NCBI RefSeq assembly: GCF_000302535.1
Contig: NC_018708.1
Coordinates: 1,488,001 to 1,552,000 of the forward strand
Length of the DNA stretch: 64,000 nucleotides
Reading direction: 5' to 3'
Source: Acidovorax sp. KKS102
GTDB lineage: Bacteria; Pseudomonadota; Gammaproteobacteria; Burkholderiales; Burkholderiaceae_C
The notes under the pieces were generated by a model, which saw only the letters and a list, made by a program, of their open reading frames with translations, ran no database searches and was not told where the DNA came from. Position 1 is the stretch's first letter. Each line of letters begins with the position of its first letter. A program made the translations under genes and the position numbers. Shown here in pieces: positions 2,845 through 57,255 of the stretch.

Positions 2845-5319
2845 ATGTTCCCACAAGACCCGTTTTCGGGTGCGCCAGACGCCCTGGTGCCCCCACACTC
2901 CGGTGCGCCGTCGGCCGCATCCCCCCTTCTCGCCCACCTGAACGACGAGCAACTGGCTGCGGTGACCTTGCCCGCCGGCCATGCGCTCATCCTGGCGGGG
3001 GCCGGGTCGGGCAAGACCCGTGTGCTGACCACCCGCATCGCCTGGCTGCTGCAAAACGGCTATGCCACGCCCGGCGGCATTCTGGCCGTCACGTTTACCA
3101 ACAAGGCCGCCAAAGAGATGGTGGCCCGCCTGTCGGCCATGCTGCCTGTGAATGTGCGCGGCATGTGGATCGGCACCTTCCACGGCCTGTGCAACCGGCT
3201 GCTGCGCGCGCACCACAAGGCTGCGGGGCTGCCGCAGTCGTTCCAGATTCTCGACACGCAAGACCAGCTCTCGGCCATCAAGCGCCTGTGCAAGCAGCAC
3301 AACGTGGACGAGGAGCGCTTTCCGCCCAAGCAGCTGTCGTACTTCATCGCCAGCTGCAAGGAAGAGGGCATGCGGCCTGGCGATGTGCCTACGCACGACA
3401 GCGACAGCCGCAAGAAGGTCGAGATCTACCAGCTGTACGAAGAACAATGCCAGCGCGAAGGCGTGGTGGACTTTGGCGAGCTGATGCTGCGGTCTTACGA
3501 GCTGCTGCGCGACAACGACCCGATCCGCGAGCACTACCAGCGCCGGTTCCAGCACATCCTGGTGGACGAGTTCCAGGACACCAACAAGCTGCAGTACGCC
3601 TGGCTCAAGCAACTGGCGGGCAACGAGGTGGACGGGCGCTACGAAGCGCGTGGCAGCGTGATCGCCGTGGGCGACGACGACCAGAGCATCTACGCCTTCC
3701 GTGGCGCTCGCGTGGGCAACATGACCGACTTTGTGCGCGAGTTTGATGTGCAGCGCCAGATCAAGCTGGAGCAGAACTACCGCAGCTACAGCAACATCCT
3801 CGACTCGGCCAACCACCTCATCAGCCACAACAGCCGCCGCCTGGGCAAGAACCTGCGCACCACGCAGGGCGCTGGCGAGCCCGTGCGTGTGTACGAGGCC
3901 AGCTCTGACTTGGCCGAGGCGCAGTGGATGGTGGATGAGATCAAGCAGCTGGTGCGCAACGACGGCTTTGAGCGCAAGGAAATCGCCGTGCTCTACCGCA
4001 GCAACGCGCAAAGCCGGGTGATTGAATCTGCATTGTTCAATGCCAGCGTGCCCTACCGCGTATACGGCGGCCTGCGCTTTTTTGAGCGTGCCGAAATCAA
4101 GCACGCGCTGGCCTACCTGCGCCTCTTGGAGAACCCGCACGACGACACCAGCTTCACGCGCGTCGTCAACTTTCCGCCGCGCGGCATTGGCGCGCGCAGC
4201 ATCGAGGTGCTGCAGGACGCTGCCCGCGCCGCAGGCTGCTCGCTGCACGACGCGGTGAGCGCTGTGCCCGGCAAGGCGGGCGCCAACCTGGGCGCGTTTG
4301 TCGCCATGGTCGATGTGCTGCGCGAGCAGACCCAAGGGCTGAACCTGCGCGGCATCATCGAGCAGATGCTCGAATCCACCGGCCTGGTCGAGCACTTCCG
4401 CACCGAAAAGGAAGGCGCCGACCGCATCGAGAACTTGCAGGAACTCGTCAACGCCGCCGAGAGCTTTGTCACGCAAGAGGGCTTTGGCCGCGACGCGGTG
4501 GCGCTGCCGCTGGATGAGCACGGCACGCCGCTGACCCAAAGCGTGCAAAGCCCTGTGAGCCAAGGGCTGGACCCCAACGCGCCGTTGCTCGACGAGCCTT
4601 TGAAACCCGCCGTGCCCGGCATCGTGGACGCCGACACCGGCGAAACCCTCTCGCCCCTGGCCGCCTTCCTGACCCACGCCGCGCTGGAGGCGGGCGACAA
4701 CCAGGCCCAGGCTGGGCAAGACGCGGTGCAGCTCATGACCGTGCATGCCAGCAAGGGGCTGGAATTTGACTGCGTGTTCATCGGCGGCATGGAAGAGGGC
4801 CTGTTCCCCCACGAGAACTCGGCCAGCGACCGCGACGGCCTGGAGGAGGAGCGCCGCCTGATGTACGTGGCCATTACCCGCGCCCGCAAGCGGCTGTACC
4901 TCAGCCACTCGCAAACGCGCATGTTGCACGGCCAGACGCGCTACAACATCAAGAGCCGGTTTTTTGACGAGCTGCCTGAAGCAGCCCTCAAGTGGATCAC
5001 GCCCAAGCAGCAGGGCTTTGGCTCGTATGCGCCCAGTTTTGCTACTAATTCAGGAGCTGGTAGCGCATACGGATCTAGCACTAGAGGCCAATTTGGCTTC
5101 AAATCCGAGACGTTTGCCAGTCCCCCAGTGCCTGTGCAGAAGGCGGCGCCCTCGCACGGCCTGCGCGTGGGCATTGCCGTGTTTCACACCAAGTTTGGCG
5201 AGGGCAAGGTGCTGGCCATTGAAGGCACCGGCGACGACGCACGTGCACAGGTCAACTTTCCGCGCCACGGCACCAAGTGGCTGGCGCTGTCGGTGGCCAA
5301 ACTGACGGTGGTCGAATAG
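2845..5319 (+). CDS. uvrD: UvrD-family ATP-dependent DNA helicase (helicase II)
   Basis: 3'-5' superfamily 1A helicase for nucleotide excision and mismatch repair. The 824-residue product shows every family motif in order: Q motif LNDEQLAAV (32-40), Walker A AGAGSGKT (51-58), Ia TFTNKAAKEM, II VDEFQDTN (about 239), III GDDDQSIYAFRGA, IV LEQNYRS, V LMTVHASKGLEFD and VI LMYVAITRARKRLY. The C-terminus (after about residue 770) resembles the small RNAP-binding Tudor-like tail (VFHTKFGEGKV). The ATG at 2845 places the Q motif at the usual distance; earlier in-frame codons lie in the neighbouring gene. Residues 731-753, a Ser/Gly/Ala-rich linker, are encoded by a dispersed ~65-bp repeat, an in-frame insertion in the flexible region before the tail. 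Confidence 0.95.
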   Translation: MFPQDPFSGAPDALVPPHSGAPSAASPLLAHLNDEQLAAVTLPAGHALILAGAGSGKTRVLTTRIAWLLQNGYATPGGILAVTFTNKAAKEMVARLSAMLPVNVRGMWIGTFHGLCNRLLRAHHKAAGLPQSFQILDTQDQLSAIKRLCKQHNVDEERFPPKQLSYFIASCKEEGMRPGDVPTHDSDSRKKVEIYQLYEEQCQREGVVDFGELMLRSYELLRDNDPIREHYQRRFQHILVDEFQDTNKLQYAWLKQLAGNEVDGRYEARGSVIAVGDDDQSIYAFRGARVGNMTDFVREFDVQRQIKLEQNYRSYSNILDSANHLISHNSRRLGKNLRTTQGAGEPVRVYEASSDLAEAQWMVDEIKQLVRNDGFERKEIAVLYRSNAQSRVIESALFNASVPYRVYGGLRFFERAEIKHALAYLRLLENPHDDTSFTRVVNFPPRGIGARSIEVLQDAARAAGCSLHDAVSAVPGKAGANLGAFVAMVDVLREQTQGLNLRGIIEQMLESTGLVEHFRTEKEGADRIENLQELVNAAESFVTQEGFGRDAVALPLDEHGTPLTQSVQSPVSQGLDPNAPLLDEPLKPAVPGIVDADTGETLSPLAAFLTHAALEAGDNQAQAGQDAVQLMTVHASKGLEFDCVFIGGMEEGLFPHENSASDRDGLEEERRLMYVAITRARKRLYLSHSQTRMLHGQTRYNIKSRFFDELPEAALKWITPKQQGFGSYAPSFATNSGAGSAYGSSTRGQFGFKSETFASPPVPVQKAAPSHGLRVGIAVFHTKFGEGKVLAIEGTGDDARAQVNFPRHGTKWLALSVAKLTVVE
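5038..5104 (+). repeat. Dispersed ~65-bp repeat, copy 1 (inside uvrD)
   Basis: Pattern TTTTGCTA..AGCTGGTAGCGC..CTAGCACTAGAGGCC..GGCTTCAAAT. Same layout as the copies near 5.3, 28.9, 35.2, 47.6 and 55.4 kb. It stays in frame and codes for the uvrD linker ATNSGAGSAYGSSTRGQFGF. Confidence 0.8.
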
Positions 5320-5327
5320 CAGGTTTT

Positions 5328-5391
5328 GAGCAAAATCGCCTGGTAGCGCTAGTACCTTATGCCTGGATAGCTATCGTATATATAGCAATCC
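5328..5391 (-). repeat. Dispersed ~65-bp repeat, copy 2 (downstream of uvrD)
   Basis: Read on the minus strand it has the family order GGATTGCTAT..GATAGCTATCCAGGCAT..ACTAGCGCTACC..GATTTTGCTC. It begins just after the uvrD stop and before its terminator, opposite in orientation to copy 1 only 0.2 kb away. Confidence 0.75.
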
Positions 5392-5405
5392 AGAGCCGCC
5401 AATGA

Positions 5406-5435
5406 CAACGGGGCCCTCGGGCCCCGTTGGTTTTT
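5406..5435 (+). terminator. Intrinsic terminator of uvrD
   Basis: CAACGGGGCCC and GGGCCCCGTTG form a near-perfect stem closed by a short TCG loop, followed after one G by TTTTT. It sits between the convergent uvrD and phoX genes. Confidence 0.85.
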
Positions 5436-5497
5436 GAAGCGGGCCGCACGGGGTGCAGCCTTGTTGGCCCCTAGCTCAGGTGGGTTTCAGGCTGAGT

Positions 5498-7450
5498 TCA
5501 GGCCTGGTTCAGGCTGGGCTGCTTGGCAGCAGCCGTCAGGTAGCCCACGGCCGCGCCGTTCTTATTCTTGTAGTTGGCCTTGATCATCGGGTCCAGCGTG
5601 TCCTTGACCACGCTGTGGATGGCGCCCCAGTCACCGGCGTGCTGGAAGTTGCTCATGATGTACGTCCAGCCGTTGATCTCGTCCACAGCGTGCAGGCCGG
5701 TGGACTCGCCGCCTGCTGGGATCGACATCACGCGCGACAGCTGCTTGGTGTCCACGTTGTAGGCCCACAGGAAGTTGTTGACGTGCTGGCTGCTGTCTTC
5801 GCCGATGAACAGGGTGCGCATCTTTTCGGAGAACTTGAGGTTGTCCGGGTTGGCGATGTTGTTGGGGTTGGCGGTGTTGCCCAGGGCGTCGGCGGTGATG
5901 TCTTCACCGGCCAGCAGCACCTTGGTGTCCACGGGCATCCATTCGCTGTTGATGGTGCCGCCGGCGGTGTCCTTCTGGCCACCCTTGAGGTTCAGCGCCA
6001 TCACGGCGCCGGCCACCAGTTGCTTGGGCACCGAGATGCCGTTGCCCGGCACGTTGGCTGCGTTGCCTGCCACCATGGACGACTGGATGTTCTGCAGCGC
6101 AGAGTAGGCAATCTTGTCCTTGGCGTTGACCGTGGTGCCTTCCATCTTGGTGAAGCCCAGGCTGGCACCCAGGTAGGCGGCGTAGCGGTGGGTTTCCAGG
6201 AAGGCCGCGGCCTTTTCCATGCCGGGGTTCAGCTTGATCCACTCGGTCTTGCCGTTCGCCACGATCTTGGTGTAGCTGGCGTCGGCCGGGTCGGTGGTCT
6301 TCACGGTCATGATGTCCGTGGGCTTGAGCGTGTTGGCCAGGTTCTCGATCTCGGCGCTGGTGGCCGAGCCCATCTTGATCCAGGTGAGGGGGGCCGCTGT
6401 GCCCACCTTGGGGTCGATGGAGAAGCCGCTGCCCACCTTGGCAACGTACAGCGTGCCGGACGACAGGTCTTTTTCCTTGTCGGCCACGAACACGAAGTAG
6501 CCGCTGTTGGTGGCGTCGTCGCCCATCAGCGCCGTGCGGTTGTCAGGCATCACCTGCACCAGCTCGTGCGAGATGCGGCCCATGCAGAAATGCTTCTTGA
6601 TGCTGGCGGTGCCGTCGGGGTTCACCGTCACTTCGGGCATGTGGCCGTAGTGGTAGGGGTTGGCCTTGGTTTCGTCGCCATACAGGTTCTTGCTGTAGGC
6701 CTTGAACATGGCGTTGCTGGCAATGCTGAACGCATCGGGTTCGTACTCCTCGCTCGACAGGTGGGTGCCCCAGGGCGACAGGCTGGCGCCGCAGGTGATC
6801 CACAGGCCGTGCACCTTGGAGGTGTCCACGTTGTGGTACTTCACCAGGCTCAGCTTGCCGGTGGTCTGGTCCTGGTCCAGCGTCAGCACGGCGATGGGCG
6901 AGGGCAGCTTGCCGTACATGTCGGTCTTGCCGTCTTGCGCCCAGGTGGTGTATTCAAACTGCACCACGGCAAACACGGCCTTGCCCTTGAGGCCGGTCAC
7001 GGTGGGGTTGGCCACGGTCAGCAGCGAGGTGCCGTCGGGCGAGTCCGAGAAGTACTGGCGCTCCTTGCCAGCCACCGTGGCGTCGATGATGGGCTTGTTG
7101 TTGATGTCGTAGTAGCCACCCGACAGGATGGTGCCGCCCTTGCCGTCGGACACCATGTCGCCCGTCACGAAGAACGGCTGGTAAGCCAGCTGGTACGAGC
7201 GCACCGAGTCGTCGCTGAGCTTGATGTTGAGCGTGGAGCCCACGGTGGTGGTGGCCATGGCTGCGGCGTTGGCCAGGGTGGGGGCTGCCATCGACGTGAA
7301 GCTGGCCGACACAAAGCTGGGCGCGGCGGAGTCGCTGCCACCGCAGGCGGTCAGCAGGGCGGCCGAGGCGCTGGCGCTGAGCGGCAGCATGGGAACGCCG
7401 GCCAGCAGTTGCAGGGCCTTGCGGCGGGTGGGCATCGTCGGTTGGGTCAT
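5498..7450 (-). CDS. phoX: PhoX-family alkaline phosphatase, Tat-exported
   Basis: Periplasmic or lipid-anchored phosphatase of the DUF839/PhoX family, which frees phosphate from organic esters and uses Ca and Fe. The 650-residue product starts MTQPTMPTRRKALQLLAG: twin Arg 9-10, a hydrophobic stretch, then LLTAC with Cys36, which fits a Tat signal and a possible lipobox. The GLWITCGASLSPWGTHLSSE stretch contains the family's conserved Cys and acidic metal ligands, followed by EEYEPD. The start at 7450 puts the twin-arginine motif at the N-terminus; a longer frame to 7663 would bury it. A PhoB-type box of 11-bp repeats lies 125 nt upstream, so induction by phosphate starvation is very likely. 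Monocistronic, convergent with uvrD. Confidence 0.92.
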   Translation of the reverse strand: MTQPTMPTRRKALQLLAGVPMLPLSASASAALLTACGGSDSAAPSFVSASFTSMAAPTLANAAAMATTTVGSTLNIKLSDDSVRSYQLAYQPFFVTGDMVSDGKGGTILSGGYYDINNKPIIDATVAGKERQYFSDSPDGTSLLTVANPTVTGLKGKAVFAVVQFEYTTWAQDGKTDMYGKLPSPIAVLTLDQDQTTGKLSLVKYHNVDTSKVHGLWITCGASLSPWGTHLSSEEYEPDAFSIASNAMFKAYSKNLYGDETKANPYHYGHMPEVTVNPDGTASIKKHFCMGRISHELVQVMPDNRTALMGDDATNSGYFVFVADKEKDLSSGTLYVAKVGSGFSIDPKVGTAAPLTWIKMGSATSAEIENLANTLKPTDIMTVKTTDPADASYTKIVANGKTEWIKLNPGMEKAAAFLETHRYAAYLGASLGFTKMEGTTVNAKDKIAYSALQNIQSSMVAGNAANVPGNGISVPKQLVAGAVMALNLKGGQKDTAGGTINSEWMPVDTKVLLAGEDITADALGNTANPNNIANPDNLKFSEKMRTLFIGEDSSQHVNNFLWAYNVDTKQLSRVMSIPAGGESTGLHAVDEINGWTYIMSNFQHAGDWGAIHSVVKDTLDPMIKANYKNKNGAAVGYLTAAAKQPSLNQA

Positions 7451-7574
7451 TTTCGGGGTGTTTCCAAGTGGGTATGCAAACGGGCATGCCACGCCCTGAT
7501 CCGACCGGGAGCCTTGTTGGAAAAGGCGTAGTAGGCGGGGGGCATGGAATCCAGCCCGCGATCCTAGGAACGCC

Positions 7575-7611
7575 CCGTGACAGTGGTTTGACGTTTGTGT
7601 GACCGTTTGAC
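7575..7611 (-). promoter_or_regulatory. PhoB box (Pho box) upstream of phoX
   Basis: On the minus strand GTCA occurs with exact 11-bp spacing (complementary TGAC at 7578, 7589 and 7600), with one more at 7608, in the order GTCAnnnGTCACACAAAC, GTCAAACCACT, GTCACGGG. Direct 11-bp repeats with a conserved GTCA are the hallmark of PhoB binding sites. The position before a phosphatase gene supports it. Confidence 0.8.
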
Positions 7612-7690
7612 GCGGTGCCTTGCGCAGCGCGTGACGCCCGCCCAAGGCGCGCCGCGCAGGCATGGCTGCGCGTGCGCTGCGGGACAGGCC

Positions 7691-8482
7691 CTAGTCCCGG
7701 GAGCCGGGCGGGCCGTAGGAGTTGCCGGTTCCGTAGTTGTTGGCCGGTACGGCCGCGCCACCGCTGCCATCCTTGATGCCCTTGCGGCCCGACACCTGCC
7801 ACGCGGTGCGCTGGTTGACCAGCCCGGCCAAGAACTCCATCTCTTCGTCCGTGTGGTTGATGGCACCGGCCGGTGTCAGCAGCCGGCCATTGCGGGGTGC
7901 GGGCTCGGCCCAGAACGACTGGTGGTAGCTGGACTGGCTCACCAGGCGCTCGCCGCCTGCCGTCAGCTCCACCGTGCCATAACAGTTGCAAAGGTAGCCG
8001 CGCTGGTCCTGGTCGGCAAACACCTCGGCGTACACGCCGGTGCCGCGGATGCCTGCGGTGGCCGTGGGCAGCGCAATCTGCCGGTCTGGGCCGCGCCCCC
8101 ATACCGTCGCCACTGCACCGCTGAGCAGGCGCAGCAGCTTGACGGCGGTGGGTGTGTCGCTCTCCATCGCCATGCGCGAGTTCTGCCGCACCATGAAGGC
8201 GCTGTCGCCCACTGAGAACACCAGGCTGGCGCCCGGCCCGGTCTCAATGCGGTCGTTGGCGGTGATGGTGTGCTGCGCCGTCAGGGGCTCGCCATTGCGC
8301 AGCACCTCGCCGCGCACTTCCACGATATTGCTGCGCGCCTGCGCATGGGCGGCAGCCCAGCCACCGCCTGCCACCCACAGCGCGGCGGCCTGCACCACGC
8401 TGCGGCGCTGGAACCAGACCAGCTCGTCGTCAGAGCGGCCCTGCAGGTGGTGCGTCAGGGGGGCTGGGGGGCGGGGTGTCAT
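7691..8482 (-). CDS. FecR-domain protein, exported
   Basis: A 263-residue protein with FecR-type beta-sandwich repeats: EVRGEVLRNGEPL, ITANDRIETGPGASLVFSVG, SAFMVRQNSRMAM and ATAGIRGTGVYAEV, the last with the GIRGT motif typical of stand-alone FecR domains. FQRRSVVQAAALWVAGGG at about residues 24-41 is a signal sequence with a twin arginine. Unlike regulatory FecR proteins it has no partner sigma gene next to it and no N-terminal cytoplasmic helix domain, so it is more likely an envelope or periplasmic scaffold protein. Its start overlaps the end of the upstream membrane-protein gene by 53 nt, which implies an operon. The C-terminal 25 residues are Gly/Pro/Asn-rich. Confidence 0.75.
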   Translation of the reverse strand: MTPRPPAPLTHHLQGRSDDELVWFQRRSVVQAAALWVAGGGWAAAHAQARSNIVEVRGEVLRNGEPLTAQHTITANDRIETGPGASLVFSVGDSAFMVRQNSRMAMESDTPTAVKLLRLLSGAVATVWGRGPDRQIALPTATAGIRGTGVYAEVFADQDQRGYLCNCYGTVELTAGGERLVSQSSYHQSFWAEPAPRNGRLLTPAGAINHTDEEMEFLAGLVNQRTAWQVSGRKGIKDGSGGAAVPANNYGTGNSYGPPGSRD

Positions 8483-9284
8483 GGGGCGCCTCTTCTTGCT
8501 GCGGGGTGTAGGGGGGCTCGAAGCAGTCGCGGAAGGTGAAGACCACCGAGGTGAAGAACATGGCCGCCAACATCATGGCAGCGCCCACCATGATGCCACC
8601 GGCCATCGATCCCGCAAGCCCCGCCACAGCCAGCAGGGCCGACACGATGCTGACCACCAGCCCGCCCAGCAAAAACACCCCCAGCCAGCCCAGCCCATAG
8701 ACAAGGAACGCGCCAAAGTTGCGCACGCAGGCCACGATACTGAAGAACAACGCCTTGACTGGTGGCACGCCATGCCAGTGCACGAGGCCCGGTGCATGCC
8801 AGAACAGCAGCGATAGCGGCAGGTACAACAGCATCGACAGCCACATGGCGCGCTGGAAGTCCGGGTTCTCGGCAATCTCCCGGGTCATGGGCGCGCCGCC
8901 CAGGTACACCTGCGCAAACTGGCCGCCGTCCAGCAGGGCCGACAGCCCCATGATGCCGAGGAAAGCCACCGCATACAGCACACCCAGCGTGAGCATGTCG
9001 CGCAGCCTCTCGCGCCCGGTGCGAAACGCCACCAGCAGCACCGTGGGCATCGGAAACCGCCCTTGCGATGCCTGCGCCGCCGCCACCATCATGGCCAGCG
9101 TGGCCGACGGCAGCAGTGCGAGGGCAATGGCCGGGCCCACCAGCGGAATCATCGTGGCCAGCGACATCGCCGCCATGGTCATGAAGAACAGCGCAGCTAG
9201 CGCCATGGGCTGCCGCCAGAACGCCCGAACGCCGAGCTTGACCCAGGCCATGCCGGTGCGTGCGGGAACGATGTGGAGTTTCAT
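8430..9284 (-). CDS. BPSS1780-like inner-membrane protein
   Basis: A 284-residue polytopic membrane protein with about six or seven hydrophobic segments (examples LAALFFMTMAAMSLATMIPL, LFWHAPGLVHWHGVPPVKAL, GWLGVFLLGGLVVSIVSALL). The N-terminal MKLHIVPARTGMAWVKLGVRAF and the FWHAPGLVHWHG motif match a family of betaproteobacterial membrane proteins of unknown function (BPSS1780 type, from memory). The start at 9284 is chosen because the conserved N-terminus begins there; the frame is open 75 nt further. The C-terminal tail is Pro-rich and overlaps the FecR gene. Confidence 0.65.
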   Translation of the reverse strand: MKLHIVPARTGMAWVKLGVRAFWRQPMALAALFFMTMAAMSLATMIPLVGPAIALALLPSATLAMMVAAAQASQGRFPMPTVLLVAFRTGRERLRDMLTLGVLYAVAFLGIMGLSALLDGGQFAQVYLGGAPMTREIAENPDFQRAMWLSMLLYLPLSLLFWHAPGLVHWHGVPPVKALFFSIVACVRNFGAFLVYGLGWLGVFLLGGLVVSIVSALLAVAGLAGSMAGGIMVGAAMMLAAMFFTSVVFTFRDCFEPPYTPQQEEAPHDTPPPSPPDAPPAGPL

Positions 9285-48091: not shown

Positions 48092-50380
48092 ATGCCATCG
48101 CTCCGCCAGTTTTTCTCTCACCGCCTGATCTGGCTGGCCTTGCTGGTGGCTCTGGGCATTGGTGCGTTGTTTGCGCGCGCCATTTGGACCATTCGCAATG
48201 ACGAGTGGAGCTACGCAGAGCAAACCAACGCCAACCTGGCCCGCACCCTTGAGCAGGGCCTGGCATGGTCGCTGGATTCGTTTGACAAATCTTTGGAAGG
48301 CGTAGCCCGCGAGGTGGCACGCCCCGAGGTCTGGGCCTTGCCCCCCGACCTGCGCGCGCGGGTGGTGTTCGACAACTCGCTGCGCGCGCGTGGCGCGGGC
48401 GATGTGCTGGTGCTGGACGCGCAGGGCAACGTCATCCTGGACTCGGGTTCACTGGTGCCCCGCAAGGCCCATTTTGCCGACCGTGACTACTTTCTGGCGT
48501 TCCGCGAGCAAGGCCAGCAGGGGCTGTTCTTCGGCAAGCCCGTGCCTTCGCGGGTGACGGGCCTCAACATCCTGCCCATCTCGCGCGGCTACTACAACGC
48601 AGACGGCAGTTTTGCCGGTGTGGTGGTCGGCGCCATCCGCCTGAGCTATTTCAATGAACTGTTTGGCTCGCTGAACCTGGGCCCCAACAGCGGCATCAAC
48701 CTGTTCAGGCAGGACGGGGTGGTGATCTCCCGGTTTCCCTATGGCGATGCCGACGTGGGCAAGACCATTGCGGGCTCGCCCAACCTGCTGCGCTTTCAGA
48801 CGGAGGGCTCGGGGTCGTTTGTGGGCAAGGCCGCGCTCGATGGCGTGGAGCGGCTGTACTCCTTCCGGCCCGTGGGCAACTATCCGCTGATCCTGAACGT
48901 CGCCCAGTCCACCGACACCATCCTGGCCAAATGGCGGAGCAGCGCCTTGGTGCTGGGCGGCTTTGCCGTAATGCTGATGCTGGGCTGCCTGGGGCTGGCC
49001 CTGCTGTTTGTGCGCGAGCTGCTGCTGCGCCAGAAGGTGTCGGCGCGCCTGACCGAGGCCGAGCACGACCTGCGCACCACCCTGGACAACGTGCCCTCCA
49101 TGATTGCCTACTGGGATGCCGGTATGCGCAACCGCTTTGCCAACCGCGCAGCGCTGGAGGAGTTTGGCACCTACCCGGCACCAGTGCGGGGCCGCCACAT
49201 CAGCGAGCTGCTGAGCGAGGCCCGGTATGCAGCCAGCAAGCCCAATTACGACTTGGCCTTGGCAGGCAAGCCACTGCGCTTTGAGCGCACGGACGAGGAC
49301 CACGACGGTCTGCCGCGCCACTGCATCGTGTCCTATCTACCCGATACCGATGAGCGCGGCGTGGTCACCGGCCTCTTTGTGCAAGTGACGGACATCACCG
49401 AGCGCAAGCGCATGGAGAACGAGCTGTTCGACGAGAAAGAGCGCGTACGCCTCACGCTGCAATCCATCGGTGATGCCGTGGTCTGCTCGGACGCCAAAGG
49501 CATGGTGACCTACCTCAACCCCGTGGCCGAACGCCTTACGGGCTGGCAGGCGTTTGATGCGGCCGGGCACAACGTGGACGAGGTGGTGAGCCTGCGCAGC
49601 CCCGACAACGACGAGCCCTTGCCCAACACGCTGCGCACCGCGATACAGCAAGGCGCCGCCACGGACCCCGTGCGGGGCGTTCTGGTGCACCGCACCAGCG
49701 GCCAGCGCTTCCAGGTGGAGGAGACGGCCAGCGCCATCACGGACCGCCATGGTGCGGTGACCGGTGCGGTGGCCGTGTTGCGCGATGTGACCGAGGCCGT
49801 GGCCATGGCCGAGCGCATGGCCCACCTGGCCCAGTACGACGCACTGACCGACCTGCCCAACCGCGTGCTACTGCAGGACCGCGCCCAGCTGGCGATGGCG
49901 CTTGCGCGGCGCGAAGGCAAGTCGCTGGCGGTGATGTACCTGGACCTTGACGGTTTCAAAGAGGTCAACGACCGCCTGGGCCATGACGCGGGCGACATCC
50001 TGCTGGTGCAGTTTGCCCAGCGCCTGCGGGCGGCGGTGCGCGCGTCCGACACCGTGTGCAGGCAAGGGGGCGACGAGTTTGTGGTGTTGTTGCCGGGGCT
50101 GGACGGAGTGGAGCCCGCCTGCCTGGTGGCGCGCAAGATCCTGGCGGCCTGCGATGCTGCTTTTGAGCTGGCCGGGCAGCCGGTGCGGGTGGGGGTCAGC
50201 GGCGGCATTGCACTGTTCCCGCAGCATGGCAGTACCTTTGACGAGTTGTCGCGCCATGCCGACGGAGCCATGTACGCGGCCAAGCGGGGTGGCCGCATGC
50301 GCTTTATGCTCTACCGGGGGGCTGAAGCCGAGCCCGAGTCGGTGTTGCCAGAGTCGGACCTGGCGGCCACCGCCCAGTAG
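48092..50380 (+). CDS. Sensor diguanylate cyclase with periplasmic double-Cache-like domain and two PAS domains
   Basis: 762 residues. TM helix 1 (about 10-32), a periplasmic sensor (about 35-275) with the Cache-like block VLDAQGNVILDSGSLVPR, ADRDYFLAFREQGQQGLFFG and NILPISRGYYNADGSFAGVV, TM helix 2 (about 280-305), two PAS domains (about 325-445 and 450-575; TLDNVPSMIAYWDAGMRNRF, TLQSIGDAVVCSDAKGMVTY) and a GGDEF domain (AVRASDTVCRQGGDEFVVLL). The I-site RASD is present. No EAL domain. A 'TAAAATAGTTACAAACTAT' AT-rich stretch directly before the ATG could contain its promoter. Confidence 0.9.
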   Translation: MPSLRQFFSHRLIWLALLVALGIGALFARAIWTIRNDEWSYAEQTNANLARTLEQGLAWSLDSFDKSLEGVAREVARPEVWALPPDLRARVVFDNSLRARGAGDVLVLDAQGNVILDSGSLVPRKAHFADRDYFLAFREQGQQGLFFGKPVPSRVTGLNILPISRGYYNADGSFAGVVVGAIRLSYFNELFGSLNLGPNSGINLFRQDGVVISRFPYGDADVGKTIAGSPNLLRFQTEGSGSFVGKAALDGVERLYSFRPVGNYPLILNVAQSTDTILAKWRSSALVLGGFAVMLMLGCLGLALLFVRELLLRQKVSARLTEAEHDLRTTLDNVPSMIAYWDAGMRNRFANRAALEEFGTYPAPVRGRHISELLSEARYAASKPNYDLALAGKPLRFERTDEDHDGLPRHCIVSYLPDTDERGVVTGLFVQVTDITERKRMENELFDEKERVRLTLQSIGDAVVCSDAKGMVTYLNPVAERLTGWQAFDAAGHNVDEVVSLRSPDNDEPLPNTLRTAIQQGAATDPVRGVLVHRTSGQRFQVEETASAITDRHGAVTGAVAVLRDVTEAVAMAERMAHLAQYDALTDLPNRVLLQDRAQLAMALARREGKSLAVMYLDLDGFKEVNDRLGHDAGDILLVQFAQRLRAAVRASDTVCRQGGDEFVVLLPGLDGVEPACLVARKILAACDAAFELAGQPVRVGVSGGIALFPQHGSTFDELSRHADGAMYAAKRGGRMRFMLYRGAEAEPESVLPESDLAATAQ

Positions 50381-51689: not shown

Positions 51690-52103
51690 CTACCTTGCTG
51701 CTGGCACCGGCGCGGGCAGGCGTTTGAGCGTGGCCAGATAGGCCACCACGTCCTCGCGGTCCTGCGCATCGTCAAGCTGGTAGTCCATGCCCTGGCCGGG
51801 TATCAGCGCCTCGGGGTCCGTCAGCCAGGCCTTGAGCGTGGCCCGCGTCCACAGGATCTTGCTGGCGCGCAAGGCCGGCGAGTAGTCAAAGTCCTTCAGG
51901 GCGCCAGCGCGGCGCCCCACCACGCCCCGGTGCGCCGGGCCGTCTTCATGCTGGTCAGGGCTGTGGCAACTGCTGCAATGCGCTGCGTACAGCGCAGCGC
52001 CACGCTCCACCGACTGGGCCATGGCAGCGCCGTGGCCCGCCCAGAGCAGGGCGGCTGCCAGGGCAACACAACGAACAGGGGACCGTGGACAGGGCAGGGG
52101 CAT
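51690..52103 (-). CDS. Monohaem class I cytochrome c, periplasmic
   Basis: 137 residues. Signal peptide ends MAQS (about residue 30), the heme-binding motif is CSSCH (Cys43, Cys46, His47) and the distal ligand is probably Met106 in GQGMDYQ. EDVVAYLATLK at the C-terminus is the usual helix of class I cytochromes. It is an electron carrier in the periplasm, and its candidate promoter shares a motif with the sigma-factor gene opposite (see separate entry). It is divergent from the sigma gene and convergent with the lactate dehydrogenase gene, so it may accept electrons from that enzyme, but the shared promoter points to the sigma module. Confidence 0.88.
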   Translation of the reverse strand: MPLPCPRSPVRCVALAAALLWAGHGAAMAQSVERGAALYAAHCSSCHSPDQHEDGPAHRGVVGRRAGALKDFDYSPALRASKILWTRATLKAWLTDPEALIPGQGMDYQLDDAQDREDVVAYLATLKRLPAPVPAAR

Positions 52104-52155: not shown

Positions 52156-52183
52156 TAATACGGCTGATGTCACCCCCTGGATT
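52156..52183 (-). promoter_or_regulatory. Candidate ECF-sigma promoter for the cytochrome c gene
   Basis: On the minus strand AATCC, 16 nt, CGTATTA. Upstream of the cytochrome start by 53 nt. Same layout as the sites at 52239 and 53873. Confidence 0.65.
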
Positions 52184-52238
52184 CAGCCGCTTCGCGGTGT
52201 TCTTTCATGGGTGTCGTTCCTGCTGTGTGTCCCGCCCA

Positions 52239-52266
52239 CATCCAAAACGCCAGCTGTGGCGTATTC
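52239..52266 (+). promoter_or_regulatory. Candidate autoregulatory ECF-sigma promoter
   Basis: CATCC, 16 nt, CGTATTC, ending 57 nt before the sigma start codon. The spacer length is identical to the other two sites. Confidence 0.65.
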
Positions 52267-52323
52267 ACCTACAGCAAAGCCCCACAGGCCCTGCCCACCC
52301 AACCAATCCCAGAGAATGGGCGC

Positions 52324-52899
52324 ATGAGCACCCTCCACCCAGACAGCGAACTGATGGACCTCCTAGACCGTATTGCCGCGCAGGACGACGCCGCGCTGAA
52401 AAGACTGTACGAGCGCACCTCGTCGCAGCTTTTTGGCCTGGCCCTGCGCATCGTCCGCAACCGCGACGCGGCGGAGGATGTGTTGCAGGAGGCGTTTTTG
52501 ACCATCTGGCGCGGTGCCGGCAGCTACCGCGCATCGCTGAGCCCGCCGATGGCCTGGATGGGGCTCATCGTGCGCAGCCGGGCGCTGGACGCCCTGCGCA
52601 AGCGCACCACCGACCGGGCCGATCTGATGATCGAGCTGGATGACGCCATGGCGCAGACGATGGAGGGCGATGCCCCCAACCCCATGGACGCTGCCGATGC
52701 GAGCGAGCAGGCGTTTGCGCTGCACCACTGCCTGGGCAAGCTGGACCACAAGCAGCGCGAGGTGGTGAGCCTGGCCTACCTGCGCGACCAGAGCCATGGC
52801 GAGCTGGCCGAGCAACTCAAGCTGCCGCTGGGCACCGTCAAGACCTGGATTCGCCGGGGGCTGGAGCAACTGCGTGCCTGCATGGCGCGCTACGCCTGA
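52324..52899 (+). CDS. ECF (extracytoplasmic function) sigma factor
   Basis: 191 residues of the sigma-70 family group 4. Region 2 (about 20-88) with ALRIVRNRDAAEDVLQEAFL and IWRGAGSYRASLSPPMAWM; region 4 (about 133-187) with LDHKQREVVSLAYLRDQSHG and LKLPLGTVKTWIRRGLEQLR. The start ATG at 52324 is the first with a proper N-terminus MSTLHPDSELMDLLDR. The anti-sigma gene follows 10 nt after its stop. An identical-spacing motif before it and before two other operons suggests it drives them. Confidence 0.93.
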   Translation: MSTLHPDSELMDLLDRIAAQDDAALKRLYERTSSQLFGLALRIVRNRDAAEDVLQEAFLTIWRGAGSYRASLSPPMAWMGLIVRSRALDALRKRTTDRADLMIELDDAMAQTMEGDAPNPMDAADASEQAFALHHCLGKLDHKQREVVSLAYLRDQSHGELAEQLKLPLGTVKTWIRRGLEQLRACMARYA

Positions 52900-52909
52900 G
52901 GTCGTCGCC

Positions 52910-53701
52910 ATGAACATCACCCAACACCCTGATTTGCTCGACCGCCTGGCCGCCAGCTACGCGCTGGGCACGCTGCGCGGCGGCGCTCGCCGCCGTTTTG
53001 AGGCCCTGGCGCGCGAACACGCCACCGTGCGCGCCGCCGCCCTGGTGTGGCAGACCCGCTGGTCGGGCCTGACCGAGCTGCAACCGCAGGTGGCGCCTTC
53101 GCCCGCCGTCTGGACGCGCATTGACAACCTGGTGCGGGCTGGCCAGCTGGAGCAGGCCATGCTGGCCGCCCGGCAGGCCGCGCCCGCCCAGGCCCCCGGC
53201 GGCTGGTGGCGCAACCTGCTGGTGTGGCGGGGTGCGGCCGCTGCGGGGGCCATCGCCACGCTGGCGGCGGTGGTGGTGGGCGTGCAGGTCAACGGCGGCC
53301 TGCGCGCCACCACGGGCGCGCAGATTGCTGCGCTGCAGCAGCAACTGCAGGCCACGCCCCAGATCCAGTACGTGGCCGTGCTCGCGGACGACAAGGCGGC
53401 TGCCTCCATGCTGGTCACTTTTGACCCCAAGAACAACCAGTTGGTGCTGCAACGCGTGGGCGGTTTTCAGGAGGGGGCGGACAAGTCGCTGCAACTGTGG
53501 GCACTGCCACCGGCGGGCGGGCCACGCTCGCTGGGGGTGTTGGGCCAGGACAAATTGCTCAAGCTGGCCGCCGGCGAGGCCGATGTGCGCCAGGTGCCCG
53601 CCTTGGCCATCAGCCTGGAGCCCAAGGGCGGCGTGCCCAGCGAGACGGGGCCCACCGGGCCGGTGCTGTTCAAGGGCGAGCTGATCCAGCGGATGCTGTA
53701 A
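52910..53701 (+). CDS. RskA-type anti-sigma factor, membrane-anchored
   Basis: 263 residues. N-terminal cytoplasmic anti-sigma domain (about 1-95; DRLAASYALGTLRGGARRRF, ALVWQTRWSGLTELQPQVAP) with no zinc motif (no His-x3-Cys-x2-Cys), one TM helix (about 103-127; WRGAAAAGAIATLAAVVVGV) and a C-terminal periplasmic domain (AAALQQQLQA start; YVAVLADDKAAASMLVTFDP; LPPAGGPRSLGVL) of the RskA family. This topology is that of a membrane-bound anti-sigma that releases the sigma factor after proteolysis or a periplasmic cue. Its stop codon overlaps an inverted-repeat element. Confidence 0.9.
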   Translation: MNITQHPDLLDRLAASYALGTLRGGARRRFEALAREHATVRAAALVWQTRWSGLTELQPQVAPSPAVWTRIDNLVRAGQLEQAMLAARQAAPAQAPGGWWRNLLVWRGAAAAGAIATLAAVVVGVQVNGGLRATTGAQIAALQQQLQATPQIQYVAVLADDKAAASMLVTFDPKNNQLVLQRVGGFQEGADKSLQLWALPPAGGPRSLGVLGQDKLLKLAAGEADVRQVPALAISLEPKGGVPSETGPTGPVLFKGELIQRML

Positions 53702-53819
53702 GAGCGGCTCACAAAACTCCCCCTGGCGTCGTTGTCTCGCCTTGTCGTACTGGTTGTATGTACTGCCTGCGGCGAAACGCCTGGCCAGGGCCGCTTCGCT
53801 GAGTTTTGCGAGCCGCTCT
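53701..53819. repeat. Inverted-repeat element at the anti-sigma 3' end
   Basis: Arms AGAGCGGCTCACAAAACT (53701-53718) and AGTTTTGCGAGCCGCTCT (53802-53819), 17 of 18 pairs, around an 83-bp core. The left arm starts on the last base of the anti-sigma stop codon. No protein is encoded. Confidence 0.8.
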
Positions 53820-53872
53820 GGGCACCTGCGCAGCGATTTGCTACCGCCGCGCAACATTTTTGAAAATTCGTG

Positions 53873-53900
53873 AATCCGCCGGGCATCCGGGAGCGTATCC
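53873..53900 (+). promoter_or_regulatory. Candidate ECF-sigma promoter for the DUF3034-globin-cupredoxin operon
   Basis: AATCC, 16 nt, CGTATCC, ending 43 nt before the DUF3034 ATG. The motif and exact spacer match the two sites at 52.2 kb. Confidence 0.65.
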
Positions 53901-53942
53901 AGATGGCAACATCTTCTTACATCCCGTTTCCTGGAGACCACG

Positions 53943-54881
53943 ATGACCCTCAGGCCCCCCTTTCCCCTCCTGGCTGCCGCCGCGCTGACCCTGGTCAGCG
54001 GCCAGGCCCAGGCCGATACCGGCAAGCTGCTGCTCACCGGCGGCGTCAGCACCATCGCCGGGTCGGCCGGTGGCGGGCTGACCCCCTGGGCGGTGATTGG
54101 CAGTAACGCCACCGAGGGCGAGGTGGGTGTCAGCGCCTATGCCACCCGCGCGGCCACACAGGACTACAGCCTGAACGGCTATGGCGTGGCCCTGGGCCTG
54201 CACGACCGCGTGGAGCTGTCGCTGGCGCGGCAGGACTTTGATGCCTCGCCCGCCATCGCGCTCAACGGCATTGCGCCGTTTGGTGTGACGCCCGGCCAGC
54301 ACATCAAGATGGACGTGCTGGGCATCAAGCTCAAGGTGGCGGGCGACGCCGTGCTCAACAGCGACAGCTGGATGCCGCAGATTGCGGTGGGGCTGGAGCA
54401 CAAGCAGGTGCACCCGGGCTCCATCGGCTCGGTGCTGGACTTTCTGGGCACTAAAACCAGCGGCACCGATGTGTACGTGAGCGCCACCAAGCTGCTGCTG
54501 GCGCAAAGCGTGCTGGTCAACGGCACGCTGCGCTACACCAACGCCAACCAGAACGGCCTGCTGGGCTTTGGCTCGGCTGCACCGGGCAAGAACGGCCGCA
54601 GCCTGCAGCCCGAGTTCTCGGTGGCGTACCTCATCAACAAGAACCTGGCGGTGGGCGCCGAGTACCGCTTCAAGCCCAACAACCTGCAGGCCCTGGGCGC
54701 AGCAGCGGGCCTGGGCGCCGCGCTGCGTGAGGACGACTGGAAGGACATCTTTGTGGCCTGGGCGCCCAGCAAGAACGTGTCGCTCACGCTCGCCTATGTG
54801 GACCTGGGCCGCGTCGTGCCCGGCATCACCAACAACCGCCGCCAGACCGGCTATTACCTGTCGGCTCAAGTCGCCTTCTGA
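53943..54881 (+). CDS. DUF3034 outer-membrane-like protein
   Basis: 312 residues with a signal peptide (cleavage near AQAD). The mature protein has alternating hydrophobic/polar strands typical of an outer-membrane beta-barrel (for example VGVSAYATRAATQDYSLNGY, SVLVNGTLRYTNANQ, VSLTLAYVDLGRVVPG) and ends in Phe, as OM barrels do. TGGVSTIAGSAGGGLTPWAV at the N-terminus is the DUF3034 signature. The GGAG ribosome site is 9 nt before the ATG. First gene of the putative sigma-controlled operon. Function unknown. Confidence 0.82.
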   Translation: MTLRPPFPLLAAAALTLVSGQAQADTGKLLLTGGVSTIAGSAGGGLTPWAVIGSNATEGEVGVSAYATRAATQDYSLNGYGVALGLHDRVELSLARQDFDASPAIALNGIAPFGVTPGQHIKMDVLGIKLKVAGDAVLNSDSWMPQIAVGLEHKQVHPGSIGSVLDFLGTKTSGTDVYVSATKLLLAQSVLVNGTLRYTNANQNGLLGFGSAAPGKNGRSLQPEFSVAYLINKNLAVGAEYRFKPNNLQALGAAAGLGAALREDDWKDIFVAWAPSKNVSLTLAYVDLGRVVPGITNNRRQTGYYLSAQVAF

Positions 54882-54891
54882 GGACATTGTC

Positions 54892-55368
54892 ATGACGCAC
54901 TCCAAAACCCTCATCGCCCTGGCCGTCTCTCTCGGCAACTTGCTTGCTGCCCCGGCCTTTGCGCAGACCGCTGCGGCTCCGGCAGCCACAAGTGCTGCCC
55001 CAGCAGCCCCTGCAGGCCTGTACCAGGCCCTGGGCGAAAAGCCGGGCATCACCCGCCTGGTGGACGATTTTGTGAACCGCGTGGTCAAAGACCCGCGCAT
55101 CGGCGGCCACTTCAAGGACACCAAACCGGCCGCGCTCAAGGAGAGCCTGACCGACCAGTTCTGCCAGCTGAGCGGTGGCCCTTGCAAATATGAAGGCGCT
55201 GACATGAAGTCGGCCCATGCCGACATGGACATCAACAAGGGCCATTTCAACGCCCTGGTGGAGGTGCTGCAAAGCGCCATGGACGCCCAAGGCATACCGT
55301 TCGCTCAACAGAACCGCCTGCTGGCCTTGTTGGCGCCCATGCACCGCGATGTGATCACCAAACACTAA
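54892..55368 (+). CDS. Exported group-1 truncated haemoglobin-like protein
   Basis: 158 residues, with a Sec signal peptide (MTHSKTLIALAVSLGNLLAA, ending AFAQ) and an Ala/Pro linker, then a two-on-two globin: LGEKPGITRLVDDFVNRVVK, TDQFCQLSGGPCKYEG and HFNALVEVLQ. Proximal His is His109 in MKSAH. The usual B10 Tyr (FY pair) is here Val61 (FV), so oxygen binding would differ from known group-1 truncated globins. Periplasmic location is unusual for this family. The ATG is 10 nt after the DUF3034 stop. Confidence 0.87.
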   Translation: MTHSKTLIALAVSLGNLLAAPAFAQTAAAPAATSAAPAAPAGLYQALGEKPGITRLVDDFVNRVVKDPRIGGHFKDTKPAALKESLTDQFCQLSGGPCKYEGADMKSAHADMDINKGHFNALVEVLQSAMDAQGIPFAQQNRLLALLAPMHRDVITKH

Positions 55369-55372
55369 GACG

Positions 55373-56137
55373 ATGAAAAATGCTATTTTTTTCATAGCTG
55401 CCAGCGCAATATTCACTAGCACTTGGGCCGGAAATGTCCAAATCCAGGTGCTGGACCGCGACGGCAAGCCTGTGCCCGACGCCGTGGTGGTGGTGTACCC
55501 CAGCGCCACCACCGCTGCGGCCCCCAGCCTGCTGCAGCCCAGTCCCACCATCGAGCAGGAGCGCATGCGGTTTGTGCCTGCCGTCACGGTGGTCATGCCC
55601 GGCTCCACCGTGCGGTTCACTAACCAGGACCGCTGGGACCACCATGTACGCGGCAACCCCACGGGGGCGGCCGCTGCGGCAGCACCGGCTGCGGCCAGTT
55701 CCAACTTCGAGCTGCGCCTGGCGGGCAAGGCCGATGGCAAGCCTGCCAACTTTGCCGATGTGAAGCTGGATACGCCCGGCGTGGTGCTGCTGGGCTGCCA
55801 CCTGCACGGCTCCATGCGGGGCCATGTGTTTGTGACCGATTCTGCCTGGACGCTCAAGACCGACAGCGACGGCATCGCCCGTTTTGCCAGCGTGCCCGAT
55901 GGCGCCGCGCAAGTGCGCGTGTGGCATGCCGAGCAACTGGTGGACCTGCCGCGCAAGGCGCTGAATGTGGTGCCTGGCCCGGTGCTGGATACCGTGCAGC
56001 TCAGCGTGGTGCCCCGCGTGCGGCGTGCACCCCCGGCTGCGCCTGCAGGCCCCGGCAATACCCCGGGCGGACCCATGGGGTCTTACAGCCTGGCTCCTGT
56101 TTCGGCCCACCCAGCCCATCAGCACCCCGGCAGCTGA
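55373..56137 (+). CDS. Cupredoxin-like periplasmic protein (methylamine-utilisation-type)
   Basis: 254 residues, exported. The signal peptide is MKNAIFFIAASAIFTSTWAG, encoded mostly by a dispersed repeat. The mature domain contains a carboxypeptidase-regulatory-like strand pair at its N-terminus (VQIQVLDRDGKPVPDAVVVV) and the plastocyanin-type copper ligands: His90/91 in DHH, Cys142, His145 and Met148 in LLGCHLHGSMRG. The C-terminal region is Pro/Gly-rich. Its 5-nt gap to the globin gene shows an operon. It probably carries electrons to or from the globin or a cytochrome; a periplasmic copper site is firmly supported, the partner is inferred. Confidence 0.83.
   Translation: MKNAIFFIAASAIFTSTWAGNVQIQVLDRDGKPVPDAVVVVYPSATTAAAPSLLQPSPTIEQERMRFVPAVTVVMPGSTVRFTNQDRWDHHVRGNPTGAAAAAAPAAASSNFELRLAGKADGKPANFADVKLDTPGVVLLGCHLHGSMRGHVFVTDSAWTLKTDSDGIARFASVPDGAAQVRVWHAEQLVDLPRKALNVVPGPVLDTVQLSVVPRVRRAPPAAPAGPGNTPGGPMGSYSLAPVSAHPAHQHPGS
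55376..55436 (+). repeat. Dispersed ~65-bp repeat, copy 6 (encodes a signal peptide)
   Basis: AAATGCTATTTTTTTCATAG, CTGCCAGCGCAATATTCACT, AGCACTTGGGCCGGAAATG. Overlaps the first codons of the cupredoxin gene and yields its hydrophobic signal sequence. Confidence 0.7.
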
Positions 56138-56271: not shown

Positions 56272-57255
56272 TCAGCCAGGCAGCTTGAGTCCGCCAGGTC
56301 CGGAGGGGACGGTGTTGGCACTGCTCTTCTGGCCGCCGACCGTGGTGCTGCCCACCTCCTGCTTCACGCTGCCCGGGGGCGCGTTCAGGTACAGGTACAG
56401 CGCCTGCGCATCCACATCGCTCAACTGACCCAGCGACTCGAAGGGCATGACCTGGATGGGCGTGCCGTCCGGTCGCTTGCCGGTGCGCAGCATGGACACA
56501 AAACTGGCAGCGTTGGGATAGCGGGCCAGGGCGGTACCCGCGCTGTGTGTTCCAGGGCGGATGTCTGCGGCCGCAGGCCAGTCGGGTGGTGCGCCTGGAA
56601 TCTTGCCGCCCGACAGGTCGGCACCATGGCAGCCGATGCACATGTTGGCCACGTATTGGCCGTTGGCCAGCGTCACACCGGCAGCGGTGGGGCGCGAGGG
56701 CGCCAACTGGTGGTCGATGCGCGAGGCCGCGTCAGGAATCGCACCCAGCCCATACAACACCCAGGCAGGGTGCGGGAGATCGATCACGGCCTGCGCGCCT
56801 TCCTTCGGCGGGAACTGGCGTACGTAGGAGACCAGGGCGTTCAGGTCTTCGTTGGTGAAGCGGTTGTAGTCCTCGCTGGGCATGACCAGCACGGGGCGGC
56901 CGTTGGGCTTGACGCCATGGCGGATCACGCTGTTCCAGTCCTCGGGCTGGTAGCGTGCCACCACGCCAGCGGGCGTGATGTTGGGCCCCACGATGCGCGT
57001 GCCCTTGCCATCGTTGACGAACTCGCGGCCCGTGCCCTGTGCGCCGTGGCAGTCGGTGCAGCCGCGCGATGCATACAGATAGCGCCCGCGCTCGATGGTC
57101 TGCGCATCGGTGGTGTAGGCCACGGGGCGGGGTTTGATGTCGATGTAGCGGTTGCGCTTTTGCTCGGCCAGGTACAGGCCGCTGGCGGCGGTGGCGACAA
57201 CGATCACGCCCAGCAGCAGCGCGCTGCCAGCGGTCCATTTGATCCAGCGTTTCAT
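56272..57255 (-). CDS. Diheme cytochrome c
   Basis: 327 residues. N-terminal hydrophobic anchor (SALLLGVIVVATAASGLYLA, about 11-30). Two heme-binding motifs, CTDCH at Cys66/Cys69 and CIGCH at Cys206/Cys209, with two cytochrome c domains. Met ligands are probably within VLVMPSEDY and IQVMPFES. Membrane-bound or periplasmic electron carrier. It is convergent with the cupredoxin operon, so the two sets meet at the 3' ends; no copy of the ECF motif was found upstream of it. Family could be that of alcohol or sulfite/thiosulfate related cytochromes; substrate is not shown. Confidence 0.9.
   Translation of the reverse strand: MKRWIKWTAGSALLLGVIVVATAASGLYLAEQKRNRYIDIKPRPVAYTTDAQTIERGRYLYASRGCTDCHGAQGTGREFVNDGKGTRIVGPNITPAGVVARYQPEDWNSVIRHGVKPNGRPVLVMPSEDYNRFTNEDLNALVSYVRQFPPKEGAQAVIDLPHPAWVLYGLGAIPDAASRIDHQLAPSRPTAAGVTLANGQYVANMCIGCHGADLSGGKIPGAPPDWPAAADIRPGTHSAGTALARYPNAASFVSMLRTGKRPDGTPIQVMPFESLGQLSDVDAQALYLYLNAPPGSVKQEVGSTTVGGQKSSANTVPSGPGGLKLPG

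Follow-up and report, generated by a model that had tools for sequence, protein, structure and literature searches.

The SigK-RskA pair of Mycobacterium tuberculosis, an extracytoplasmic function (ECF) sigma factor followed by a membrane anti-sigma with an RskA_C domain, has a regulon of mpt70/mpt83, which encode FAS1 proteins, and dipZ. SigK activity requires both of its cysteines (C133/C183), and this pair occurs in 94% of ECF18, 56% of ECF19, and <2% of other ECF families (PMC7509140). The same source follows an mpt83-sigK-rskA cassette with a conserved SigK site as far as Yersinia. Group labels disagree, with M. tuberculosis SigK placed in ECF18 (PMC7509140) and its RskA in AS19 (PMC7406223). 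According to PMC7509140, the signal to which SigK-RskA responds is still unknown; PMC9861118 calls the stimuli obscure. We analyzed a 64,000-nt stretch of the Acidovorax sp. KKS102 genome (contig NC_018708.1, positions 1,488,001 to 1,552,000; hereafter the window), in which a sigma gene (52324..52899, + strand), an rskA-type gene (52910..53701, +), a divergent cytochrome c gene, and a DUF3034-globin-cupredoxin operon form a cluster. Judging from a shared promoter-like motif, the window very probably holds the core of an Acidovorax SigK-RskA-like ECF sigma regulon, along with its SigK-RskA-like regulator.

The window sigma factor (191 residues) contains sigma regions 2 and 4 only, as ECF sigma factors do, and its nearest solved relative in the PDB is M. 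tuberculosis SigK (4nqw_A, E 3.2e-21). Its Cys136 and Cys186 align with C133 and C183 of SigK. This pair was kept in all 53 distinct orthologues of at least 60% identity and in 27 of 28 below that level, the exception being locus L130. The adjacent anti-sigma (263 residues, no cysteine) carries an RskA_C domain (PF10099, E 1e-24, residues 112-252), as in SigK-RskA-like systems; a sequence search with it gave no solved relative. As in M. tuberculosis, a FAS1 (MPT70/83-like) gene stands behind the sigma factor's candidate motif. In contrast to M. tuberculosis, the Acidovorax FAS1 gene is unlinked to the pair, and the putative regulon extends further, to DUF3034-globin-cupredoxin and to genes for cytochrome c, glutathione peroxidase (GPx), and DUF4148-like and DUF4331 proteins. 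We use the label SigK-like, and not SigK, because the NCBIfam SigK model scored the sigma factor at 129.8 bits, below its curated cut-off of 226, and because a tree built from the window sigma, 47 of the 96 recovered sigmas (own-genome paralog L304 included), and two partial chains from the PDB had long branches and placed M. tuberculosis SigK insecurely, beside the outgroup.

Searching across the phylum, we found a sigma factor at E <= 1e-32 in 87 of 398 genomes. Among 29 distant sigma loci (own locus excluded), a FAS1 gene lies beside the pair in three and a DUF4331 gene in two. Two of the FAS1-sigK-rskA loci (L294 and L303) have TGCATCC-N17-CGTAT 46 and 42 nt before FAS1 and are of the same type as the Gram-negative cassette of Yersinia enterocolitica (PMC7509140). 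That type has one cassette and a 17-nt spacer, whereas in Acidovorax the regulon is dispersed and the spacer is 16 nt. The RpoE regulon of Rhodobacter sphaeroides is alike in that it includes RSP_1409, an induced FAS1 protein, and cycA, which encodes cytochrome c2 and is hardly induced (PMC7074977). The R. capsulatus pair named 'rpoE-chrR' is singlet-oxygen-induced, adjoins a GPx operon, and stands at 34%/25% to M. tuberculosis SigK-RskA versus 24%/13% to R. sphaeroides RpoE-ChrR (PMC7074977). Shewanella RpoE2-ChrR also controls a periplasmic glutathione peroxidase, and its mutant is sensitive to H2O2 and paraquat; however, its anti-sigma is ChrR-type and its other targets differ (PMC4336711). 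R. sphaeroides ChrR needs zinc (PMC7406223), whereas the cysteine-free Acidovorax anti-sigma lacks the zinc-binding His/Cys character of the RpoE-ChrR (ECF11) type. The type of regulator is familiar, and its target set, above all DUF3034-globin-cupredoxin, appears to be new, with no description found in the open-licence literature that we searched.

The original prediction had placed three promoter-like sites in the intergenic regions of the cluster, reading [A/C]ATCC-N16-CGTAT[T/C] with exactly 16 nt between the boxes. Scanning the window with this motif (MATCC-N16-CGTATY), we recovered all three at coordinates agreeing to within one base and found no match elsewhere in the 64 kb. Dinucleotide shuffles (n = 100) gave an expectation of 0.02 matches, and 0/100 reached three, which confirmed that the observed pattern is real. 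The putative SigK-type promoter of the cytochrome c gene (52157..52185, -; TGAATCC-N16-CGTATT, short-motif match 52183-52157) has its CGTAT end 54 nt from the start codon (52103, -). The putative autoregulatory promoter of sigma-rskA (52237..52265, +; CACATCC-N16-CGTATT, short-motif match 52239-52265) ends 59 nt before the sigma start (52324, +), and the putative promoter of DUF3034-globin-cupredoxin (53871..53899, +; TGAATCC-N16-CGTATC, short-motif match 53873-53899) ends 44 nt before the DUF3034 start (53943, +). At 37 DUF3034 sites selected only by [AC]ATCC-N16-CGTA, the preceding bases were G in 37/37 and T in 35/37, and we therefore refined the box to TGAATCC-N16-CGTA. The window's own sigma-gene site (CACATCC) is the exception to this extension. 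While the spacers have diverged, TGAATCC-N16-CGTA(T) is kept before the same three units at almost every Acidovorax locus examined and at many loci from elsewhere in the Comamonadaceae. The RpoE promoter of R. sphaeroides differs from this motif.

In the own genome (5.197 Mb, a single contig), TGMATCC-N16-CGTAT matched four times, with two matches in the cluster; the looser CGTA end gave six. Across 40 Acidovorax genomes, the same motif gave 131 matches in 29 genomes, and its reversed control gave none. When we left the spacer free (TGAATCC-N(10-22)-CGTAT), 112 of the 144 matches, counted by hand, had 16 nt. The other 12 spacings together gave 32 matches, at most seven at any one, and the reversed control gave six over all 13 spacings. 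A sigma ortholog (82-100% identity) was present in 27 of the 40 genomes, and every one of the 27 had sites. Eleven of the 13 sigma-less genomes had no match at all, three of these being only 72-82% complete. Setting aside the sigma-less genome G025, the 16-nt spacing accounted for 107 of 130 free-spacer matches in the 27 sigma-plus genomes versus 0 of 9 in 12 sigma-less ones (Fisher p 7e-7). The sites are conserved together with the sigma gene and, G025 and G032 apart, are absent where the gene is absent. The short MATCC-N16-CGTAT matched 13 times in the own genome, three times in the cluster and three times in identical copies of AATCCCCCAGTGTCCTCTTACCGTAT (C1:1848693, 4516100, 4860092) that lack the TG prefix. 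Since no open reading frame (ORF) was listed downstream of the inspected copy (L059), these copies are probably a repeated element and not a regulon member.

We also checked the orthologous clusters, where the motif proved to be present in most, though not every, cluster. In Acidovorax relatives, up to 450 nt upstream of each gene were scanned, allowing no more than a single mismatch and 15-17 nt between the boxes. A site stood before the sigma gene in 18/18 relatives (17 exact, one with one mismatch), before the adjacent cytochrome c gene in 10/10 (six exact, four with one mismatch), and before DUF3034 at 24 of the 26 loci whose contig includes the gene start (11 exact, 13 with a single mismatch). 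DUF3034 itself occurs in 27/60 genomes including the own one, namely in 26/36 of the genus and in one of another family; L031 and L056, the latter from the other family, had no site, and the L055 start was off the contig. At the same stringency, control genes gave 0/18 (rskA), 0/16 (the dihaem cytochrome gene cytB), and 1/26 each with one mismatch (globin, cupredoxin). The exact 16-nt spacing predicted from the window held in every orthologous site found among these relatives.

A second set comprised 78 loci from named bacteria, with strains partly overlapping the first set, and was searched for [AC]ATCC-N16-CGTA in 250 nt upstream. The site preceded the sigma gene at 37/46 loci, DUF4331 at 11/11, the cytochrome gene at 17/26 (N17 at one more), and DUF3034 at 39/77 (N17 at two more, 15 other spacings together at five). 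None of the controls had it (rskA 0/45, globin 0/72, cupredoxin 0/51, cytB 0/18, TPR 0/12, HupE 0/12, lldD 0/19). In Rhodoferax and relatives, the sigma pair is inverted at nine loci (L096, L098, L100, L101, L108-L112) and starts 3.8-5.6 kb past the DUF3034 start. These nine loci retained the site at both the sigma and the DUF3034 units; the sites survive rearrangement of the cluster. In four relatives (L031, L042, L044, L045), DUF4331 is inserted between rskA and DUF3034 together with genes that we take, by eye, to be TPR-like and HupE/UreJ-like, and the motif before this DUF4331 is exact in two and has one mismatch in two.

A three-promoter regulon, as originally proposed, turned out to be too small, as FAS1, GPx, and DUF4148-like genes elsewhere in the genomes also carry the motif. 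Among the 131 sites, 28 lie in the cluster by coordinates, and we read the other 103 distinct ones (104 records, one double), assigning families by sequence patterns and judging export by eye from the N-termini. Nine recurrent families lie downstream of 87 of the 104 records: DUF4148-like (34), GPx (16), FAS1 (15), sigma (7), cytochrome (7), DUF3455 (3), DUF3034 (2), MsrP (2), and DUF4331 (1). Single representatives scored above the Pfam cut-offs for Fasciclin (PF02469, G006 sequence), GSHPx, DUF3455, Oxidored_molyb, DUF4331, and HbpS-like; the DUF4148 representative scored below its cut-off, hence DUF4148-like. FAS1 genes with a site occur in 15/40 genomes (own site C1:3263515-3263542), and the motif precedes an exported GPx in 16. 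In the own genome, GPx has a site with a CGTAA end (C1:5027344). The own genome also has a DUF4148-like gene with a site (C1:3796894); an HbpS-like gene at C1:4651303, with a CGTAG end and a start 114 nt off, is a weak candidate. Searching the own genome for DUF4331 gave nothing, a weak negative as the search matched no control genome either. The original description of the set as periplasmic redox proteins suits a part of it, with DUF3034, DUF4148-like, DUF3455, and DUF4331 being of no known function.

The DUF4148-like genes (for example, L180-L183 and L206-L210) encode near-identical small exported proteins behind near-identical promoters, with up to five copies per genome. At L157, L171, and L224 (genomes G004, G020, G062), the motif lies 45-165 nt upstream of genes that are presumably BcsB-like, a possible link to cellulose synthesis.

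Comparing GPx and FAS1 loci in nine sigma-less genomes (three incomplete ones and G025 were left out), we found the GPx ortholog (77-84% identity) kept in six. None of these six had the motif, the best matches having 3-5 mismatches. In the own genome, a protein search led to the GPx gene, and TGAATCC-N16-CGTA is perfect there. The other eight sigma-plus GPx loci that we compared all had the motif, by construction, because they were found through it. The FAS1 ortholog was absent in 9/9 sigma-less genomes, the matches left there being only 40-60% identical. The reading of the locus as an ECF sigma regulon is therefore supported by the motif in orthologous clusters, by its tracking of the sigma gene over 40 genomes, and by its absence before GPx in six sigma-less genomes.

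Under the proposed mechanism, RskA, the membrane anti-sigma, would hold the sigma factor until an envelope challenge inactivates or cuts RskA and frees the sigma factor. Once free, the sigma factor would guide RNA polymerase to promoters of the form TGAATCC-N16-CGTAT. Its targets would be sigma-rskA itself, the divergent cytochrome c gene, the DUF3034-globin-cupredoxin operon, and the unlinked FAS1/fasciclin, periplasmic GPx, and DUF4148-like genes, with DUF4331, DUF3455, and MsrP added in some species.

Several observations weigh against this regulon. Orthologous sites are not independent of one another. Of the named DUF3034 loci, 36/77 have no site inside 250 nt; 20 of the 36 are Comamonadaceae or unresolved beta-proteobacterial, five of these Acidovorax, and the remaining 16 are from Rhizobacter, Roseateles/Pelomonas, Xanthomonadales, and alpha-proteobacterial, Bdellovibrionales, and marine gamma-proteobacterial sources. 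At L079, the DUF3034 site lies beyond 250 nt and was seen under L043 on the same contig. Of the 104 records, 34 are DUF4148-like paralogues and 17 have no recurrent family downstream; six of the 17 have no ORF listed, one of them (L199) being a DUF4331 site at the fetch edge. The own-genome MsrP lacks the motif, and since MsrP has it only in two genomes (G031, G063), we rejected MsrP as a general member. Only 7 of the 29 distant sigma loci carry the motif close to the sigma gene; the FAS1 neighbour at L302, one of three, lacks it, as do the two DUF4331 neighbours. In a wider family survey with one genome per genus, the motif gave 55 matches in only 27/60 genomes (reversed control, 1). The 32 site records that we read, from 29 loci and including two repeats and the own DUF3034 site, comprise nine before a member family by pattern, three sigma-gene-like and one cupredoxin-gene-like by eye, and 19 without family assignment. 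As only 13/32 precede a known member family, the motif alone is less specific outside the genus. Finally, G025 has five sites and G032 has one, both without the sigma ortholog. G025 is a fragmented metagenome-assembled genome that carries DUF3034, cytochrome, and cupredoxin, and for this reason its sigma gene may sit on a missing contig.

As for the trigger, our tentative best guess is damage to the envelope by photo-oxidation or peroxides. An oxidant trigger finds indirect support in the GPx targets and in MsrP in two species. Literature parallels point the same way: light induces those M. kansasii FAS1 genes that have putative SigK sites (PMC9861118), and the Rhodobacter (PMC7074977) and Shewanella (PMC4336711) systems described above, with their singlet-oxygen induction, FAS1 member, and GPx links, add to this support. 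One finding speaks against a simple switch: the SigK-RskA complex of M. tuberculosis is reportedly stabilised when the two cysteines are oxidised, and SigK is released on their reduction (PMC7509140). Since oxidation is reported to tighten that complex, a simple oxidation switch in the sigma factor is not expected. Of the nitric oxide (NO), oxidant, or copper trigger first suggested, the oxidant part thus gained indirect backing, and the NO and copper parts gained none, in that no off-cluster target is a recognized detoxification gene for either.

An unlikely alternative is that the sigma factor responds to a misfolded or lipid-damaged envelope generally and not to oxidants, a reading in line with the outer-membrane barrel predicted for DUF3034 and with several targets being small exported proteins to which no role is assigned. 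However, no chaperone or protease gene was recognized by pattern or eye in the 104 site records, 17 of them unclassified, and GPx and MsrP point toward peroxides and methionine oxidation. It is quite improbable that NO or copper is the trigger, with globin, cupredoxin, and cytochrome forming an NO- or copper-handling module. The conserved proximal haem His of the globin, the HbN chains as the globin's nearest solved relatives, and the four putative copper ligands of the cupredoxin would fit such a module, M. tuberculosis HbN being a proposed NO dioxygenase. Against it, none of GPx, FAS1, DUF4148-like, DUF4331, DUF3455, and MsrP is a recognized NO- or copper-detoxification gene.

We consider it very improbable that a different regulator or sigma factor, such as that of the paralogous SigK-RskA-like pair at C1:620493-621017 (L304), reads the motif, whether in place of the window sigma or alongside it. 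The own genome does encode this second sigma factor, 42-46% identical, with an RskA-like gene beside it and a DUF3455 gene just upstream (both by eye); DUF3455 has the motif in three other genomes, and G025 and G032 have sites despite missing the window sigma. However, in G001, G006, G010, and G016, the window sigma is the sole match at E <= 1e-30 and motif sites are present. The paralogous sigma has no motif in its own 350-nt upstream region, nor does L304 as a whole. We set it aside as the motif reader, since the motif tracks the window sigma and the paralog locus lacks it. Single-window motif claims are often spurious, but a chance coincidence of unrelated ATCC and CGTAT words at one spacing is ruled out for practical purposes by the shuffles, orthologue conservation, spacer control, co-absence with the sigma gene, and GPx comparison.

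Among the products of the window genes, Cytochrom_C, Sigma70_r2/r4, RskA_C, DUF3034, and Bac_globin all scored above the Pfam cut-offs. The cytochrome c (51690..52103, -; 137 residues; PF00034, E 8.8e-13) has one CSSCH haem site and was judged exported by eye. DUF3034 (53943..54881, +; PF11231, E 6.3e-94) is predicted to be an outer-membrane beta-barrel; its AF2 model (pLDDT 76.7, pTM 0.77) matched OmpG, FapF, and NanC in a Foldseek search of the PDB, NanC with a TM of 0.73 by target and 0.50 by query. The globin (54892..55368, +; PF01152), with a signal-like N-terminal extension, has the 2/2 globin domain and proximal His of group 1 truncated haemoglobins, and its closest solved relatives are HbN chains. 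Its homologues in the named loci keep the proximal His109 (72/72), Cys91 (72/72), and Cys98 (71/72). The cupredoxin-like exported protein (55373..56137, +) had no above-cut-off Pfam match and no PDB relative; its putative type-1 copper ligands H90, C142, H145, and M148 are invariant in 51/51 homologues from the named loci. Globin, cupredoxin, and their partners would fit one periplasmic redox module. A convergent dihaem cytochrome c gene (56272..57255, -) has no motif and is not a predicted member.

Taken together, it is probable that a single SigK-like sigma factor activates, as a group, genes scattered over the chromosome, several of which encode exported redox or oxidant-defence proteins. 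More speculatively, and with considerable doubt, SigK-RskA-like pairs from Mycobacterium to Acidovorax could form a single conserved sensor of envelope damage by photo-oxidation or lipid peroxides, to which Burkholderiales recruited a new periplasmic redox relay. In such a relay, the DUF3034 barrel, the exported disulfide-bearing truncated globin, and the blue-copper-like protein would move electrons to or from haem, destroying the oxidant. The Acidovorax regulon offers a harmless, non-mycobacterial SigK-RskA-like system with a sharp promoter code for asking what this widespread kind of switch senses, with GPx, FAS1, the exported globin, and cupredoxin as diagnostic targets. It also supplies a regulatory context for DUF3034, DUF4331, and DUF3455; an open-licence full-text search for DUF3034 and DUF4331 found the former named once in each of two papers and the latter in none.

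The DUF3034-globin-cupredoxin module also exists apart from this sigma factor, as five loci of marine gammaproteobacteria (L137, L138, L139, L140, L142) pair it with a large GGDEF-EAL-type gene, in the row cupredoxin, GGDEF-EAL-type gene, DUF3034, globin (~5000-9250). GGDEF, EAL, and dCache_3 were identified by Pfam in L138 and L139 and by homology in L137, L140, and L142, and this marine module appears tied to cyclic di-GMP signalling. In the window, a dCache-PAS-GGDEF protein is encoded upstream of the cluster (48092-50377), with a gene in between that we take to be lldD-like.

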